The notes below the pieces were generated by a model. It had not been told where the DNA came from. It made no database searches and saw nothing but the letters and a program-made list of their open reading frames with translations. A stretch of 64,000 nt of DNA. Source: Sphingobacteriaceae bacterium. Its GTDB lineage: Bacteria; Bacteroidota; Bacteroidia; B-17B0; Aurantibacillaceae. Numbering within the stretch: the first letter of the stretch is position 1; each line of letters begins with the position of its first letter. Shown here one piece after another: positions 57,408-64,000 of the stretch. The stretch covers positions 5,022,001-5,086,000 of the forward strand of contig NVQB01000001.1 in NCBI GenBank assembly GCA_002319075.1, in the 5' to 3' direction. The translations under genes were made by a program, and so were the position numbers.

Positions 57408-58067
57408 ATGTTTGACCCGGCATTATTTATAACCATTCTTATCGGTTTGTTTTCTTTAATAAATCCATTAAGCGCTTTGCCGATCTACTTGGGTTTAACG
57501 CAGGATGATTCGGAAGAGAATAAATTAAGAACGCTTAAAAAAGCCTGCCTGTATGTTTTTGTCATTTGCTTAGTATCGTATTACCTGGGCGTTTATCTGC
57601 TTCATTTCTTTGGCATTACTATTCCAGCCCTGCGTGTGGCCGGCGGACTTATTATCTTTAGATCAGGTTGGCAGTTATTAAATGTTCAGCACAAAAAAGA
57701 ATTGCGTGGCAATATTAAAGAAGAAGTTGGAAGCCGTGATGACATTTCTTTTTCGCCACTTGCCATGCCTCTTTTGGCAGGTCCCGGCTCAATGTCTTTT
57801 TTAATTACCTTATTTTCGAACAGAAGCAATAATGTTAACGAGGCCATTTACCAGGATGTTTTCGCAATCATCGCAATTCTTCTTGTTATCCTGTCCATTT
57901 ATTTTGTGTTTAAATTTGCCCCAAGGCTTATGAAATACGCAGGACAATCAGGCTTGACAGCGCTTTCAAAAATAATGGGCTTTATTGTAACTGGTATTGG
58001 TGTTCAAATGATTCTCTCGAGTTTATCCACCGTAATAAAAACAATTTACCTCGATTTACACAGTTAG
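57408..58067 (+). CDS. MarC family integral membrane protein
   Basis: 219 residues with six TMs. FINPLSALPIYLGLTQD, GGLIIFRSGWQLL, PLAMPLLAGPGSMSFLITL and GLTALSKIMGFIVTGIGVQMIL are the conserved MarC/UPF0056 segments. Once thought to be a drug-resistance factor; transport substrate unknown. The stop overlaps the convergent deacetylase gene by 4 nt. Confidence 0.92.
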   Translation: MFDPALFITILIGLFSLINPLSALPIYLGLTQDDSEENKLRTLKKACLYVFVICLVSYYLGVYLLHFFGITIPALRVAGGLIIFRSGWQLLNVQHKKELRGNIKEEVGSRDDISFSPLAMPLLAGPGSMSFLITLFSNRSNNVNEAIYQDVFAIIAILLVILSIYFVFKFAPRLMKYAGQSGLTALSKIMGFIVTGIGVQMILSSLSTVIKTIYLDLHS

Positions 58068-59350
58068 TTCTTTTTCACCAGGTTTAAGAACTCAATGTAA
58101 AACAACTTCATTTTAGTAGTGAAGACATCGTTATGGAAAATGGAAATGAGTTCTCCATTGTATTTTTTTACTTCATTCACTAATGGATTAGCAAGATCTA
58201 CAAGACTTTTCCCTTCTTTTTCCTGCGCCAGAAGATTATTTTCGGTAATGGCAAAAGAATGAATGGTTAAAGAACTTACCGATTCAATATCAAGACTGTA
58301 CCATTTGTAGGGATAACAGTACGAAGACCTAAAACCATTAGCATTCTTGTATCCCATAGAATAGTCAGCCGTTAAACCAGCCTGCAGTAGATCCTTATAG
58401 GTAAGAGGAAAAGTTAACATGGAAAAATGCTGGCGCGTTTTTGTAATGAGTTTATGTGTGATGTTACCAAGTCGGCTTGTTTCAACTTTGAGCTGACGCA
58501 AATTGTTGTTGGACCCAAATGAAGGATGCACTCCTACCATGGAGTAATCGGCCAGGTGTTTTATCAAGGATTGAAACCGGAGGTCTGACGAAGAGTGATT
58601 TTTATCGTTCGGACCGTAATCGCCTAAAAGAAAAAAGTAAATAGCCTTTGTTTCCGTTTGTTTGTGGGCATCAATTAAAAATTCATAACAATCGAAGGGA
58701 TCTTTTTCTTTACCAAGAATGATGCGCATGCGTTGTTTAATTTTTGCGAAGTTGCGATCAGAAATTAATCCCGCCAGTGTTCTCACGAAGCCCTTATTTT
58801 TGTATTTATAAACGTTATCAATATCTATGGTAGAAATAAAATTGTAGGTCCTTTTCTTAAATTCAAGATCCGGGAAGTTTTCAGCGAGCAGTTTTTGAAA
58901 TTCGCTCAGCCAGACGTTTACCAGCGGATAATGCAGGAACTCGTATTGATAGGCCAAACTCGATTTAAAATTGAATCGATTATATTGATCTCCTTTGTGT
59001 GGGAGATATTCCTCGTAACGTGATAATAACCAAAAGGCAGCGCCAAACAAATCGAAAGGAACAGGATGTGTTGAATTCTTAAAAAATATTTTTTCAAACT
59101 GAGCATTCGTATTCACCTGTAAATGGTAGTCGCGGATGCCATGATCAAAAAGAATAGTATGTGGCTTTATGGCAAAGGCATCTTCAAATGGAAGTTCTGA
59201 ATAATTTATCTTTGGTTCAGCACTCTCTGTAAATTCTTCAGGGGCGGTAGTAATTCGGAAATCAAGACCTAGTCCTTCGCTGAGCAATGTCTTTAAAATA
59301 TAAGTAAGACGATTACTGTTTTTTTCTGAATATACAAGTATAAAATTAAT
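58064..59350 (-). CDS. DUF7033 polysaccharide deacetylase-like protein
   Basis: About 428 residues if started at ATT 59350. The first standard start in frame is TTG 59287, but the frame is open upstream and encodes INFILVYSEKNSNRLTYIL, which matches the usual N-terminus of this Bacteroidota family (ILVYTEK..PRL.YI). Then DUF7033 (about 20-150; LFDHGIRDY, PFDLFGAAFWLLSRYEEYL) and a NodB-like deacetylase region (FISTIDIDNVYKYKNKG, VGVHPSFGSN, HFSMLTFPLTYKDLLQAG). Likely acts on an envelope polysaccharide. Confidence 0.8.
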   Translation of the reverse strand: MNFILVYSEKNSNRLTYILKTLLSEGLGLDFRITTAPEEFTESAEPKINYSELPFEDAFAIKPHTILFDHGIRDYHLQVNTNAQFEKIFFKNSTHPVPFDLFGAAFWLLSRYEEYLPHKGDQYNRFNFKSSLAYQYEFLHYPLVNVWLSEFQKLLAENFPDLEFKKRTYNFISTIDIDNVYKYKNKGFVRTLAGLISDRNFAKIKQRMRIILGKEKDPFDCYEFLIDAHKQTETKAIYFFLLGDYGPNDKNHSSSDLRFQSLIKHLADYSMVGVHPSFGSNNNLRQLKVETSRLGNITHKLITKTRQHFSMLTFPLTYKDLLQAGLTADYSMGYKNANGFRSSYCYPYKWYSLDIESVSSLTIHSFAITENNLLAQEKEGKSLVDLANPLVNEVKKYNGELISIFHNDVFTTKMKLFYIEFLNLVKKN

Positions 59351-59431: not shown

Positions 59432-59713
59432 TCATATACTGCAATACAGATCCCGTGTTAAATAGTTGAGAAACTGATATATTGAGAAAGCGAGTAATGC
59501 AATGGCTAAAAGAGAATAGGTAAAGGCTTGAAAAAAAACAATAAAGCGATCCTTTAAATTTAAACGCGGGTGTAGTAGTTTTTTTCTTTTCAAAAATTCT
59601 TTATTCAAGGCAATCAGAATAATTGGAAAAACGATAAAGATTATTACGGCGGCTATTGCACACATTAGCAGCCCCAGAGCTATCGCGGCTTGCAGATGAA
59701 TCAGTACAAACAT
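59432..59713 (-). CDS. small two-helix membrane protein
   Basis: 93 residues from ATG 59713, which clears the upstream DgkA-like stop by 5 nt. Two long hydrophobic helices (about 5-38 and 56-80) with a basic RKKLLHPRLNLKDRF loop. No family recognised. Last gene of the minus-strand operon that runs back to the winged-helix regulator. Confidence 0.65.
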   Translation of the reverse strand: MFVLIHLQAAIALGLLMCAIAAVIIFIVFPIILIALNKEFLKRKKLLHPRLNLKDRFIVFFQAFTYSLLAIALLAFSIYQFLNYLTRDLYCSI

Positions 59714-59718
59714 AAAAA

Positions 59719-60072
59719 TCAAAAATAATGTGAAAAAACAATTATTCCGGCAGCAACAGCAAACAAACAAACTATAAGAACCGCGCCGGCAGAAACGTCT
59801 TTAATATATTTAATTCTTGGATCAAGTTCAGGCTTAATAATATTGCAGAGCTTCTCAACGGCTGAATTTAGCATCTCTAGGGCAATCACCAATGTGATAG
59901 CTAAAAGTAGTAGGATCCAATGTTCGTTACAGACTTCAAAAAAAGCAGCGAGTCCGATCACTAAAAGGGCAATTACGGCATGTATCTTAAGATGCGTTTC
60001 CTGCCGAAAAGCTTGGTAAATGCCTGAAAATGCGTAGCCAAAAGCATTTATTCTATTCTTAAAGTAGCCCAT
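59719..60072 (-). CDS. DgkA-family kinase (diacylglycerol/undecaprenol kinase)
   Basis: 117 residues with three TMs. NAFGYAFSGIYQAFRQETHLKIHAVIA, the catalytic EMLNSAVEKLCNIIKPE helix (Glu in EMLNSAVE) and IKDVSAGAVLIVCLFAV are diagnostic. Phosphorylates diacylglycerol or undecaprenol at the inner membrane, recycling lipid carriers. Its ATG overlaps the end of the DUF1361 gene by 14 nt. Confidence 0.9.
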   Translation of the reverse strand: MGYFKNRINAFGYAFSGIYQAFRQETHLKIHAVIALLVIGLAAFFEVCNEHWILLLLAITLVIALEMLNSAVEKLCNIIKPELDPRIKYIKDVSAGAVLIVCLFAVAAGIIVFSHYF

Positions 60073-60703
60073 TTGTTTTTCCCCCCTCTCTCGTTTTAAA
60101 CGAGTCGTAAATTTCGTAAACTAAATATAGAAAAATAGTGAATGTAAACGTTACTCCCAAAGTCTCTTTGCAATTCTTACTATCAAAAACGGAGTAAAAC
60201 ATTTGCAAAACCAAATCATCGGGATTTGAGAGAACATCCCAGCTATTAAATCTTAAATACCTTCCCAGGTAAATGCCATAGCCGTTTGACAAGAGAATCA
60301 AAAATTTAAAGAGGTTAAGTTGTACCCTTGATTTTATCTGATCAGAGAGAATATCTAAAATACGTGCGATTGTCATAACAAAAAGGGAGAGACCCAATAG
60401 GGAAAAACTGAGGATCAGAATCAGATCAAACCACATAGGGGCTATTAAATTTTTTGTGAGGTGAAAAAGATCGGTCAGGATATAGGGTGCGTTTGGTAAA
60501 AAGAGTAATGTCAGCACTAAAATTAAATTTCTCTGAATGGCTTTAGCGAAGGGATTATACTTTTTGATGAGTGCATAAGGGATACAGGCCAAAAAAAGAT
60601 TCCATAAAAGGAAGAAAAAACTCAGGTTACCAGTTTGTAAAGCCCTTAAAATTAATAAGAGAATACAGAAAGCAAATAGCTTAAGAAAATAAGTCGTCTT
60701 CAT
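60059..60703 (-). CDS. DUF1361 membrane protein
   Basis: 214 residues with six or seven hydrophobic segments. Conserved LFLPNAPYILTDLFHL and NGYGIYLGRYLRFNSWD, then NPDDLV. The family has no established function. Next to the DgkA-like gene and 3 nt from the DUF4173 gene. Confidence 0.85.
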   Translation of the reverse strand: MKTTYFLKLFAFCILLLILRALQTGNLSFFFLLWNLFLACIPYALIKKYNPFAKAIQRNLILVLTLLFLPNAPYILTDLFHLTKNLIAPMWFDLILILSFSLLGLSLFVMTIARILDILSDQIKSRVQLNLFKFLILLSNGYGIYLGRYLRFNSWDVLSNPDDLVLQMFYSVFDSKNCKETLGVTFTFTIFLYLVYEIYDSFKTREGGKTNGLL

Positions 60704-60706
60704 ACT

Positions 60707-62182
60707 TTAATAGTTTATGCTGTTTAGAATATCCCGATCTCTAAGATCCCAACTCTGCCACTCTTTTTTATAATCTTTGAGATAATATTTGATTTTCATT
60801 TTCATAAGTGCCTTAAAAGTTCTTCCTGTATGGTTCTGTGTTTGGTAAACTCGCAAATCTTTAAAGTTTTTTAAAGGACCATTTATAAGTTTAAAGTTTT
60901 TATCCTGCGAAACCTTAAGAAGCTCGGGGATGTTAGCATCTGATAACGAAAACAGGTAGTTAAAATCTACTTCGGTTAAAGGTTTATTTTTTAAATTATA
61001 CCGGGTAATTAGAACGTCCCAATTAAAAACGCTGCTTATAGCGAGGAAAGCGAACCATACCGTAAAATTGCTGCTAATAAGAAACCAGTTAGATCGCTCT
61101 TTCAAGATTTTGTAAAAGGTAATACTCAAGCCAACAGTCGCTAGAATCAACCAGACATACACTCCTACTCTTTTGTAGGTAAAATTGTAATCGTGAATGT
61201 AGAGCTGATTGCGTGTTGCCGTTGAAAATAACATGATGAGATTTTGGAAAATCCATGCATAAACCATAAATCTCAACAGTTTAGAGTTCCTGATTGCCTG
61301 GAAATTTTTCCGAAACAAAAACATAATCAGAGCTGTGGCGATAAGTATTGAAAGAACAATCATGTTAACGCCATCATGTACAAAATCAGAATGCGAAATT
61401 CCTTTTGGAAGTGCTTTATGAAACCAGATTGTATTTACATCTCCACTATTTAAAATCACGAGCATAAAATTTAAAAAGAGAAACAATAGAATTCCTGCGG
61501 AAATTTCTGTTTTAAAATTGGATTCCTTTTGAAGGTCTGCCGCTTCGTTTAAAGACTTTAACCCTTGTTCAAAATCTAAAACCGTTTTAATTTTTCTGCT
61601 ATAGAATAGGCCGTAAACAGTGAAGAAAGCAAAGGTTGTAAATAAGAGCCAGGAGAAACTGATAAAGTTAAAATTGATCCATTCTGTATTTGCTGCGAAT
61701 AAGGGATTCGCCTGTTTGTAGAGAACGAAAAATAGAATGCAGAGTAAGCTCACTATAAAAACGCTTAAGAAACCATAGCTGGAGAAAACATGTTTTTCTT
61801 TCTCTTTATTTTTTTCAGAGCGGATGGCTGCGTCCGTCACCGCAAAAATAACCGAACTTACGAGTGAATAGCAACCAAACAGAAAGGCAAGAATTGAAGA
61901 ATTTGTTCGGTTCATAGAATAGGCAGATAACAATAAGAGTCCGCAACAATTCGTAATAATAGCCAGTGCACTCGAGTTAAGTACTATGCCTGTTGCTGAA
62001 ATCAGGCACATTGTAGCAGAAAGTATCCATGGCTTTTGACGGAGGAGACTTTTGTCCCGGTAAACTAATACAGAAGTAAACACGAGGTTAAACAACAAAA
62101 AATTGATACCGGCATTTTGCTGGTAAAATAAATAGGTAAAAGCTGCCGTAGCAATTATTATTAAACGATCATTCGATTTCAT
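60707..62182 (-). CDS. DUF4173 membrane protein
   Basis: 491 residues, about 12 TMs in two blocks. NSGDVNTIWFHKALPKGISHSDFVHDGVN and NQLYIHDYNFTYKRVGVYVWLIL match the DUF4173 pattern; the soluble C-terminal 100 residues (DANIPELLKVSQD, RDRDILNSINY) are cytosolic or periplasmic. Function unknown. 1 nt from the Coq4-like gene and 3 nt from DUF1361, so translated as part of the same operon. Confidence 0.8.
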   Translation of the reverse strand: MKSNDRLIIIATAAFTYLFYQQNAGINFLLFNLVFTSVLVYRDKSLLRQKPWILSATMCLISATGIVLNSSALAIITNCCGLLLLSAYSMNRTNSSILAFLFGCYSLVSSVIFAVTDAAIRSEKNKEKEKHVFSSYGFLSVFIVSLLCILFFVLYKQANPLFAANTEWINFNFISFSWLLFTTFAFFTVYGLFYSRKIKTVLDFEQGLKSLNEAADLQKESNFKTEISAGILLFLFLNFMLVILNSGDVNTIWFHKALPKGISHSDFVHDGVNMIVLSILIATALIMFLFRKNFQAIRNSKLLRFMVYAWIFQNLIMLFSTATRNQLYIHDYNFTYKRVGVYVWLILATVGLSITFYKILKERSNWFLISSNFTVWFAFLAISSVFNWDVLITRYNLKNKPLTEVDFNYLFSLSDANIPELLKVSQDKNFKLINGPLKNFKDLRVYQTQNHTGRTFKALMKMKIKYYLKDYKKEWQSWDLRDRDILNSINY

Positions 62183-62183
62183 A

Positions 62184-62705
62184 TCACAGAGTTTTAATTT
62201 TAGTAGTAAATAATTGACTTCTTATTTGTTGTAAATCCTCGGAAAGAATACTTTTTAAATTCAGTTGAGAAATATCTATGCAGCTTTTTCCGCGGGCGAA
62301 AGATGTACGTAGGTAAGACCAATGAAAAGGAAGAAGGCACCAGGCGCCGATCGCAGTGCTGAAAGAAGCTATAGAATTTTTACCATTACCTCTCAGAAAG
62401 AACTGAAGTGCTACTTCATCTTTAAAAGAAGAAGTAAAATCAAACAGCACATGATAGACATCGTGTGATTCAGCTCCGGCAATGGGTTCAAGTTTGTTTA
62501 GTTTTAAAAACTCACCAAGTTTTCTACCGACAGTTTCCTCGGGAAAATTCAAAAACTCGTTCGTTTTCATGTTCCAGGGAGTTTCCTTTGTTCCGAAATT
62601 GAAAACAACAGGACCTATGAGATGTGCGGTATAGGAAGAAACTTTTTCGTGTATTCTCCATAAAAATGCGATGAGCTTTGGACTCTGTTTAACGGGTGTA
62701 TTCAT
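62184..62705 (-). CDS. Coq4-like protein A
   Basis: 173 residues from ATG 62705, overlapping the upstream membrane-protein gene by 17 nt (a longer start at 62744 is possible). Carries HDVYHVLFDFTSSFKDE, an exact HDxxH-x11-E motif as in COQ4 proteins, followed by ALQFFLRGNGK. Upstream VGRKLGEFLKLNKLEPI and the C-terminal LNLKSILSEDLQQI helix also match its paralogue in the next-but-one gene. COQ4 acts in ubiquinone synthesis in other phyla, but Bacteroidota use menaquinone, so the substrate is open. Confidence 0.75.
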   Translation of the reverse strand: MNTPVKQSPKLIAFLWRIHEKVSSYTAHLIGPVVFNFGTKETPWNMKTNEFLNFPEETVGRKLGEFLKLNKLEPIAGAESHDVYHVLFDFTSSFKDEVALQFFLRGNGKNSIASFSTAIGAWCLLPFHWSYLRTSFARGKSCIDISQLNLKSILSEDLQQIRSQLFTTKIKTL

Positions 62706-63162
62706 GAGTTGTAGTATTAAGGTGTTTAACTTTTTTGTAGACATAGAAAAGGGGTATAAAACCAAAGAATCCGAAAGAACAGTCTATGAGTTGGTGAAAA
62801 AATGGAATACCTCTAACTGGTCCACAAATAAAGGCCAATGGAAATACCGCAAAACAGGCGGCCATAGCAATGATGAGATTTGCTTTGTACCTTTTAGGAT
62901 CGATAAAGACAGGAATGAAAAATAAAGCTATGATAATATGTGCAAAGGCCAACCAATCTGTTCCGTAAAGAACAAGATCGGGTGTTTGTGAAATGGCCAA
63001 ATAAATAGCTTCAATCCATAAAGTGATAAAGTCTGGAAACGCATTTTTGTGTTTGATTAAAAAGTCCATTTCTGTTCTTAGTGGAAAAGCGGTGACACCG
63101 CTTATTACGAGTAATACAATAAAAATGACTAAGGCTGCTCTGATTTTAGTTAGTGGTTTCAT
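62689..63162 (-). CDS. four-helix membrane protein between the Coq4-like genes
   Basis: 157 residues with about four TMs (8-26, 66-84, 93-111, 122-140). Periplasmic loop PLRTEMDFLIKHKNAFPD and LYGTDWLAFAHIIIALFFIPVFIDPKRYK are notable. No family name recognised. Sandwiched between two Coq4-like genes (3 nt upstream, 17-nt overlap downstream), so it probably works with them. Confidence 0.75.
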   Translation of the reverse strand: MKPLTKIRAALVIFIVLLVISGVTAFPLRTEMDFLIKHKNAFPDFITLWIEAIYLAISQTPDLVLYGTDWLAFAHIIIALFFIPVFIDPKRYKANLIIAMAACFAVFPLAFICGPVRGIPFFHQLIDCSFGFFGFIPLFYVYKKVKHLNTTTHEYTR

Positions 63163-63165
63163 GTG

Positions 63166-63660
63166 TTAAATGTTAGGGTTAAATATTTTGTTTTGTAATA
63201 GACCTAGATCTTCATTCAGCAACTGTTTGAAATCCCAGTGCCTTATAGAAGTAGATTGTAGTCCTTTTTTAAAAGACAGAGTGAAATAGCCTATTTTGTC
63301 GGGAAATAATAGAGCCGTGAAGATACAGGTACCTGTAGTGAAAAAAGAAGGCTTACCATTTCCGAGTAGGAAAAATTGCATCGCTGCTTCGTCTATAACA
63401 TTTGTTGAGTAGTTTAATAAAATATGAAAGATATCGTGTCGTTCTGCTTTAGGAATGGGTTCAAATTTTTCCTTTTTATAAAATTTACCTAAACATTTTC
63501 CTAGTGTTCCATCCGGGTAATTTAAAAAGTCTTCAGGCGTTAAATCCCAGGCAACCCTACTCTTGTTTAATCCGGCATGAATAGGAACACCTTTTTCAAG
63601 TAGCCATAAAACTGTCTTGGCTCTCCATGATTTCTCGGTTTGATAATTAATTTCAATCAT
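63166..63660 (-). CDS. Coq4-like protein B
   Basis: 164 residues. HDIFHILLNYSTNVIDE again gives HDxxH-x11-E, then AMQFFLLGNGK, LGKCLGKFYKKEKFEPI and the closing FKQLLNEDLGLLQNKIF, all aligned with protein A. First gene of the structural operon after the regulator. Paralogue pair retained in tandem. Confidence 0.78.
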   Translation of the reverse strand: MIEINYQTEKSWRAKTVLWLLEKGVPIHAGLNKSRVAWDLTPEDFLNYPDGTLGKCLGKFYKKEKFEPIPKAERHDIFHILLNYSTNVIDEAAMQFFLLGNGKPSFFTTGTCIFTALLFPDKIGYFTLSFKKGLQSTSIRHWDFKQLLNEDLGLLQNKIFNPNI

Positions 63661-63680
63661 TTTACATTATATTAAAAAGC

Positions 63681-63697
63681 ACTTTGTATTTCAAAGT
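63681..63697. promoter_or_regulatory. candidate operator ACTTTG-N5-CAAAGT
   Basis: Perfect 6-bp inverted repeat with a 5-nt spacer in the 54-nt gap between the winged-helix regulator and Coq4-like B. Placed where a regulator of the operon would bind. Inference only. Confidence 0.4.
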
Positions 63698-63714
63698 AAT
63701 TGGACAAAAAAATA

Positions 63715-64000
63715 TTAATCTAATTTTCTCAATAATTTTTCAAGAGCATCGAGGTGTTCTTCAAATGCCTTCACCCCGGTTTTAGTCGCGCTATAGGTAG
63801 TTAAAGTCTTTTTTCCAACAAACTCTTTTTTTATGTGTACGAATCCTTCTTTCTCCAATGCAGAAGAATGGCTCGCGAGATTCCCATCTGTTACCTGCAG
63901 TAAATCCTTTAAAGTATTAAAATCAACACTATCGTTCACCATAAGTACACTCATAATGCCAAGTCTAACCCTGCTTTCGAAGGCCTTGTGGAGTTTATGA
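63715..64000 (-). CDS. winged-helix transcriptional regulator, N-terminus cut by window edge
   Basis: The last 95 residues are seen. HKLHKAFESRVRLGIMSVL, then FNTLKDLLQVTDGNLASHSSALEKEGFV (recognition helix region) and KKTLTTYSATKTGVKAFEEHLDALEKLL fit the HTH_34/ArsR-MarR-like regulators. Start lies just outside. It leads the Coq4-like/DUF4173 operon and probably controls it. Confidence 0.88.
   Translation of the reverse strand, partial: HKLHKAFESRVRLGIMSVLMVNDSVDFNTLKDLLQVTDGNLASHSSALEKEGFVHIKKEFVGKKTLTTYSATKTGVKAFEEHLDALEKLLRKLD

Follow-up and report, generated by a model that had tools for sequence, protein, structure and literature searches.

Why would a Bacteroidota genome with the marks of a menaquinone maker encode two proteins related to COQ4, a protein of coenzyme Q (CoQ) synthesis, among membrane proteins and a lipid kinase? 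Here, we address this question for an operon at the end of a 64,000-nucleotide (nt) stretch (contig NVQB01000001.1, positions 5,022,001-5,086,000; hereafter the window) of a 5.65-Mb genome, the home genome. COQ4 is a human disease gene, and its chemistry was settled only recently. The operon turned out to be a variant of a modular locus that is widespread. Its head consists of a polytopic membrane protein, mem235, followed by a winged-helix regulator, HTH_34, and lies across the end of the window, with mem235 and the first codons of the regulator past base 64000; its cargo includes the Coq4-like proteins Coq4A and Coq4B, the membrane proteins TM4, DUF4153 and DUF1361, and a DgkA-type kinase. 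It is well supported that these genes are tied together by a common operator-like site in a regulon, probably an HTH_34-controlled one of the envelope. The Coq4-carrying regulon is new in that it is not described in the open-access literature searched, which yielded neither a description of the regulon nor a paper on a "Coq4 family protein"; DUF4153 is named in two of the papers retrieved.

A modular locus with a common control site

Relatives of the locus were fetched via Coq4 and, separately, via mem235, the latter set consisting of the best matches, and their open reading frames (ORFs) were called mechanically; a scan of genome contigs with a single protein gave two named loci only. mem235 was found in 93 of 291 Bacteroidia genomes, and the same head recurs with variable cargo over many families of the class, with HTH_34 as the gene after mem235 in 67 of 68 loci. 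Pfam-detectable Coq4 is present in 15 of 295 genomes, and 11 of these 15 Coq4 genes are in a mem235-HTH_34 locus. What the first-pass annotation of this DNA had taken for an unusual operon is, therefore, one combination of a locus that is widespread in Bacteroidia; the gene order, whose conservation that annotation had left to be checked, recurs in related genomes.

The cargo of the 68 loci comprises DUF4153 (38 loci), Coq4 (31), DUF1361 (29), TM4 (25), an unnamed 236-amino-acid (aa) membrane family (23), DgkA (19), CreD (17), the unnamed ~100-aa family c24 (13), and DUF6688 (7). The count for Coq4 is inflated by the selection of part of this set for Coq4, which is present in just 3 of the 40 loci picked solely by mem235. 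No locus has both CreD and DUF4153: the latter is present in 0 of 17 CreD loci and in 38 of the 51 others (Fisher 3e-8, uncorrected for descent), and families f34, f41, and f54 each include loci of either kind. Based on coordinates, mem235 and CreD are side by side in 23 of the 27 genomes that have both; the home genome has no CreD. We considered and rejected the idea that the two are halves of one split family: profile comparison detected no homology (hhalign E 0.15), and the mutual exclusivity is therefore functional at most. Leads to literature on CreD in Bacteroidota turned out to be hits to the word CRediT and were dropped. DUF1361 and DgkA, on the other hand, pair up, both being present in 18 loci and only one of them in 12. 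In one genome (G273, loci L099 and L232), which has seven exact copies of the control site, DUF1361 and DgkA are located upstream of mem235, with a site before DUF1361.

The control site, which was missed in the first-pass annotation, has the consensus ACTTTG-N5-CAAAGT, usually extended by ACTTT, with near-invariant arms and a mostly free spacer. We first spotted it as a conserved element upstream of mem235 in nine loci of the genus. The copy between HTH_34 and Coq4A is the only exact one in the window, and the home genome contains exactly two, this one and one before mem235 (G000:C1:5086694-5086710); the reversed control pattern has no copy in the same genome. With 0-1 mismatch allowed, 61 of the 68 loci have one site before mem235 and a second between HTH_34 and the first cargo gene, and there are 7 other hits in 859 kb. 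For all 82 loci together, a first-order base-composition model predicts 0.15 exact copies, whereas the actual number is 113. Similarly, at least two exact copies are present in 69 of the 93 genomes with mem235 versus 8 of the 198 without it. The -7 box of Bacteroidota promoters is TAnnTTTG. At mem235, the palindrome overlaps TAACTTTG, which by its letters matches this box, and the overlap fits a repressor site. On the cargo side, a conserved run of about seven T precedes the sites, e.g., at 63698-63712 of the window (minus strand), and is weak at the mem235 sites; the promoter at the cargo sites could not be placed with confidence.

The site also accompanies genes away from the locus. It lies, with 0-2 mismatches, 15-57 nt before the gene in 10 of 14 Coq4 loci unlinked to mem235, and the four loci without it include two long (235-242 aa) Coq4-like proteins. 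Plasmid pAT2 of Aureibacter tunicatorum (NZ_AP025307.1) has a further unlinked gene, annotated as "Coq4 family protein"; this gene was left out of motif discovery and has an exact site directly before its start. A YiiX/C92 amidase gene adjoins several unlinked Coq4 genes, and in locus L048 the site precedes the amidase gene. In genomes of family f54 (L048, L178-L182), the unlinked, site-bearing Coq4 is flanked by a c24 membrane protein and a permuted papain-like protein of the YiiX/C92 type, the latter tested with Pfam in L048. Other genes near extra sites are a separate DUF4153 operon, a DUF1361-DgkA-mem235 operon, an MpaB/Lcp-type oxygenase whose start is 93 nt away, a VIT-domain protein, a related large membrane protein, members of family c23, and a weak DoxX-like protein. 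Genes of the MpaB/rubber-oxygenase (Lcp) family were seen in the locus or near an unlinked site at L015 (10441-11445) and L220 (3376-4170). In L117, L118, L177, L219, and L231, the locus or extra sites adjoin an exosortase, shown to be of the EpsH family for L117, as well as large VIT-domain or related membrane proteins; with these neighbors, the regulon may also include a protein-sorting system.

Two Coq4-like proteins in an apparent menaquinone background

Both Coq4A and Coq4B match the Coq4 profile PF05019, as the first-pass annotation had expected, with scores only modestly above the gathering cut-off of 22.9 bits. The metal motif HDxxH-x11-E, which that annotation had read from the letters, is exact in both proteins and in 27 of 27 relatives of a first set; in a later set of 46 relatives, one short or diverged sequence lacks it. 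A search of the PDB with the single sequence of Coq4B gave no match, and a family profile was needed: built from 20 Bacteroidia relatives, it identified two solved structures, both of Nostoc Coq4 (3msq, E 1e-9; 6e12, E 2e-7). Using a predicted structure of Coq4B in Foldseek, we found that the top three hits were to entries 6e12 and 3msq at E 1e-4; these were the sole entries below E 0.001, the next and unrelated hit having an E of 5.7. Altogether, these comparisons support that both proteins are Coq4-like by sequence and that Coq4B is also Coq4-like by predicted fold. In the tree, Coq4A and Coq4B belong to separate groups that are sisters and well supported (99/90 and 100/99). Each group is present in other species of the genus, and that of Coq4A includes a member from another family; the two proteins are therefore the products of an old rather than a recent duplication.

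The home genome has no match to MenD, two MqnA/MqnD-type proteins, and nothing above the cut-off for UbiG, and by these markers the organism looks like a menaquinone maker that uses the futalosine route. It also encodes seven UbiA-type prenyltransferases, six of them above the cut-off. Neither ubi/coq nor other quinone genes were recognized among the conserved neighbors in any locus. The earlier view of a menaquinone organism with no quinone gene near the operon is thus supported.

Genes in and around the window operon

All reported genes are on the minus strand (Table 1). From Coq4A onward, they are separated by gaps of 1-5 nt or overlap by 14-17 nt: Coq4A and TM4 are 3 nt apart, TM4 and Coq4B overlap by 17 nt, Coq4B and DUF4153 are 1 nt apart, DUF4153 and DUF1361 are 3 nt apart, DUF1361 and DgkA overlap by 14 nt, and DgkA is 5 nt from the gene for a 93-aa protein, assuming an ATG start for the latter (from a longer TTG start, it would overlap DgkA). 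The gene set and layout given in the first-pass annotation are therefore correct, as are the labels DUF1361, DgkA-like kinase, and winged-helix regulator; in contrast, the 491-aa protein had been labeled DUF4173, a family to which it has no match in Pfam, and is DUF4153.

Table 1. Features of the operon and its surroundings, in window coordinates
Feature	Position	Strand	Remarks
HTH_34 winged-helix regulator	63715..63999	-	100 aa in genome, first 6 codons past window end; full ORF L002 5716-6018; PF13601 99.1 bits, positions 1-80 of 80, above cut-off
Palindromic operator-like site ACTTTG-N5-CAAAGT	63681..63697	.	20 nt upstream of Coq4A start codon
Coq4-like protein A (Coq4A), 164 aa	63166..63660	-	PF05019 23.3 bits; HDIFH-x11-E
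TM4, small helical four-helix membrane protein, 157 aa	62689..63162	-	25 homologs across loci examined
Coq4-like protein B (Coq4B), 173 aa from ATG overlapping TM4	62184..62705	-	PF05019 29.7 bits
DUF4153 multi-pass membrane protein, 491 aa	60707..62182	-	PF13687 138.9 bits
DUF1361 membrane protein, 214 aa	60059..60703	-	PF07099 123 bits
DgkA-type lipid kinase, 117 aa	59719..60072	-	DAGK_prokar PF01219 108.1 bits, positions 1-102 of 102, above cut-off
Small hydrophobic protein, 93 aa from ATG; possible last operon gene	59432..59713	-	ORF list
DUF7033/VimE-like gene, 144 nt downstream of operon	58064..59287	-	PF23019 119.7 bits

In Pfam, TM4 matches no family, mem235 matches none above cut-off, and the 93-aa protein has no significant match; the latter also lacks a homolog in the other loci examined. 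With NCBIfam, no core operon protein was assigned a name above cut-off. The DUF7033/VimE-like gene, which scores 137.8 bits with the VimE model and thus far below the model's cut-off of 440, is probably a separate unit. It is kept in place after the operon in two other species of the genus (G007 and G022).

Function, alternative explanations, and related systems

The explanation that we consider probable is that of an HTH_34-controlled envelope regulon in which the Coq4-like proteins handle a polyisoprenoid lipid rather than make ubiquinone. According to this model, HTH_34 would bind the palindrome and repress its own operon together with the cargo, and mem235 would sense the state of the envelope or membrane and lift the repression. 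The derepressed cargo would then maintain or remodel the cell envelope, with CreD or DUF4153 as the central membrane protein, accompanied by DUF1361 with the DgkA-type lipid kinase, TM4, and DUF6688. The Coq4-like proteins would depend on metal, associate with the membrane, and bind a polyisoprenoid, most likely menaquinone or an undecaprenyl carrier, which they would modify or present under stress; ubiquinone would not be their product. The regulon is probably a stress or homeostasis response. We suggest an envelope response because deletion of CreD in Stenotrophomonas damages envelope integrity and triggers the sigma-E response (PMC4689548) and because the cargo consists nearly entirely of integral membrane proteins plus a lipid kinase. 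For the ligand, a polyisoprenoid is the most economical guess by analogy, based on three reports: the first Nostoc Coq4 structure, the since obsoleted 3KB4, was modeled with geranylgeranyl monophosphate; the entry that replaced it, 6E12, contains oleate and Mg ions at the motif (PMC9774615); and oxidative decarboxylation at C1 of CoQ precursors is the reported activity of human COQ4 (PMC11495197). Such a ligand also has loose support from the gene set itself, which includes the MpaB/Lcp oxygenases and the DgkA-type kinase. The lipid- or quinone-linked membrane function proposed in the first-pass annotation is thus borne out as to its setting, which is that of envelope and lipid and not of ubiquinone synthesis, while the function itself is plausible and unproven.

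Several points weigh against this explanation. Because Coq4 is missing from most loci, it is not essential to the system. The match to PF05019 is limited to profile positions 124-215 of 221, i.e., the C-terminal part, and we therefore refer to the proteins as Coq4-like; moreover, the AlphaFold model of Coq4B, made from four sequences, is of moderate quality (mean predicted local distance difference test [pLDDT] score of 66.8), with residues 1-43 unreliable, and the predicted structure of mem235 was too weak to use in a structure search. Lipid binding is carried over from the Nostoc Coq4, and the link between the palindrome as operator and HTH_34 as its regulator is statistical, with p-values that overstate independence since the loci share descent. 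We infer the Coq4 chemistry in the regulon.

Alternatively, Coq4A and Coq4B could be quinone-synthesis enzymes acting on menaquinone or a ubiquinone-like quinone, either by oxidative decarboxylation as in COQ4 or by another modification of the ring. They have the family and metal motif of COQ4, whose human member has this activity according to the report cited above, and the UbiA-type prenyltransferases would suit such a role; however, UbiG is below cut-off in a genome resembling that of a futalosine-route menaquinone maker, no locus has a recognized quinone gene, and the control site is common to envelope genes, making this alternative quite unlikely. Coq4 is detectable in a minority of the genomes of the class and, therefore, a core step in quinone synthesis is unlikely; we rejected Coq4 as a core menaquinone enzyme on the same grounds. 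That the Coq4-like proteins are instead non-catalytic, lipid-binding or scaffold proteins that stabilize a complex of TM4, DUF4153 or CreD, and the lipid kinase would agree with the structural role long proposed for Coq4 in the CoQ complex (PMC11495197) and with the very tight junctions of Coq4 with TM4 and DUF4153 here and in several other loci. Yet none of the 27 members of the divergent first set has lost any of the metal ligands H, D, H, and E, which suggests metal chemistry, and several genomes have Coq4 unlinked and without TM4 or DUF4153, so we regard a scaffold as unlikely.

Two further alternatives concern the site and the cluster rather than the proteins. The palindrome can form a short hairpin and sits near start codons, as would be expected if, instead of being the HTH_34 operator, it acted as an RNA hairpin or bound another regulator; its genome-wide tie to mem235-HTH_34, its near-invariant arms with a mostly free spacer and a conserved ACTTT extension, and its overlap with the -7 box (TAACTTTG) at mem235, which suits a repressor, make this very unlikely. 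The widely differing gene content of the loci might even suggest a chance neighborhood of unrelated membrane genes, but one small set of gene families recurs, with an unchanged head and both sites, in many families of the class, and given this conservation and the common site we rejected chance clustering, the probability of which is negligible.

Returning to the envelope regulon with polyisoprenoid-handling Coq4-like proteins, this reading suggests that COQ4-type proteins have a role outside CoQ synthesis. We speculate, as a doubtful but possible extension, that membrane polyisoprenoids, e.g., menaquinone or undecaprenyl carriers, are remodeled in an envelope-stress regulon by proteins of the Coq4 family and, in some members, also by MpaB/Lcp-type oxygenases; if so, the function of Coq4 would concern isoprenoid lipids in general, with ubiquinone synthesis as a specialized case. 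With Coq4-like proteins under one control site with CreD-type genes in apparently ubiquinone-free bacteria, the regulon offers a tractable system for the Coq4 fold beyond CoQ and a testable link among DUF4153, DUF1361, DUF6688, TM4, and mem235, families without assigned function that are common in Bacteroidota.

Compared with known systems, the Bacteroidota proteins resemble COQ4/PF05019 proteins (human and yeast Coq4; Nostoc Alr8543, 6E12 and 3MSQ) in the HDxxH-x11-E motif, the fold of the C-terminal helical domain, and a probable lipid pocket. They differ in being shorter (150-180 aa versus 221 Pfam positions, matching ~124-215), in the lack of a detected ubiquinone pathway, and in having a control site in common with envelope membrane proteins. 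The Cre regulon of gamma-proteobacteria (CreBC-CreD) is alike in that CreD is also cargo of mem235 loci; however, the mem235 locus is headed by a one-component HTH_34 regulator and a membrane protein, and the home genome has DUF4153 in place of CreD. The DgkA-type kinase of the window matches the prokaryotic diacylglycerol/undecaprenol kinases (PF01219) over their full length and, in contrast to these, is paired with DUF1361 in a regulon. Finally, pairs of genes for a regulator and a membrane protein that control their own operon are a general type. The mem235-HTH_34 pair is alike in that a small winged-helix regulator adjoins a polytopic membrane protein with a site at its own promoter, and it differs from the known pairs in that mem235 belongs to no Pfam family by these cut-offs.

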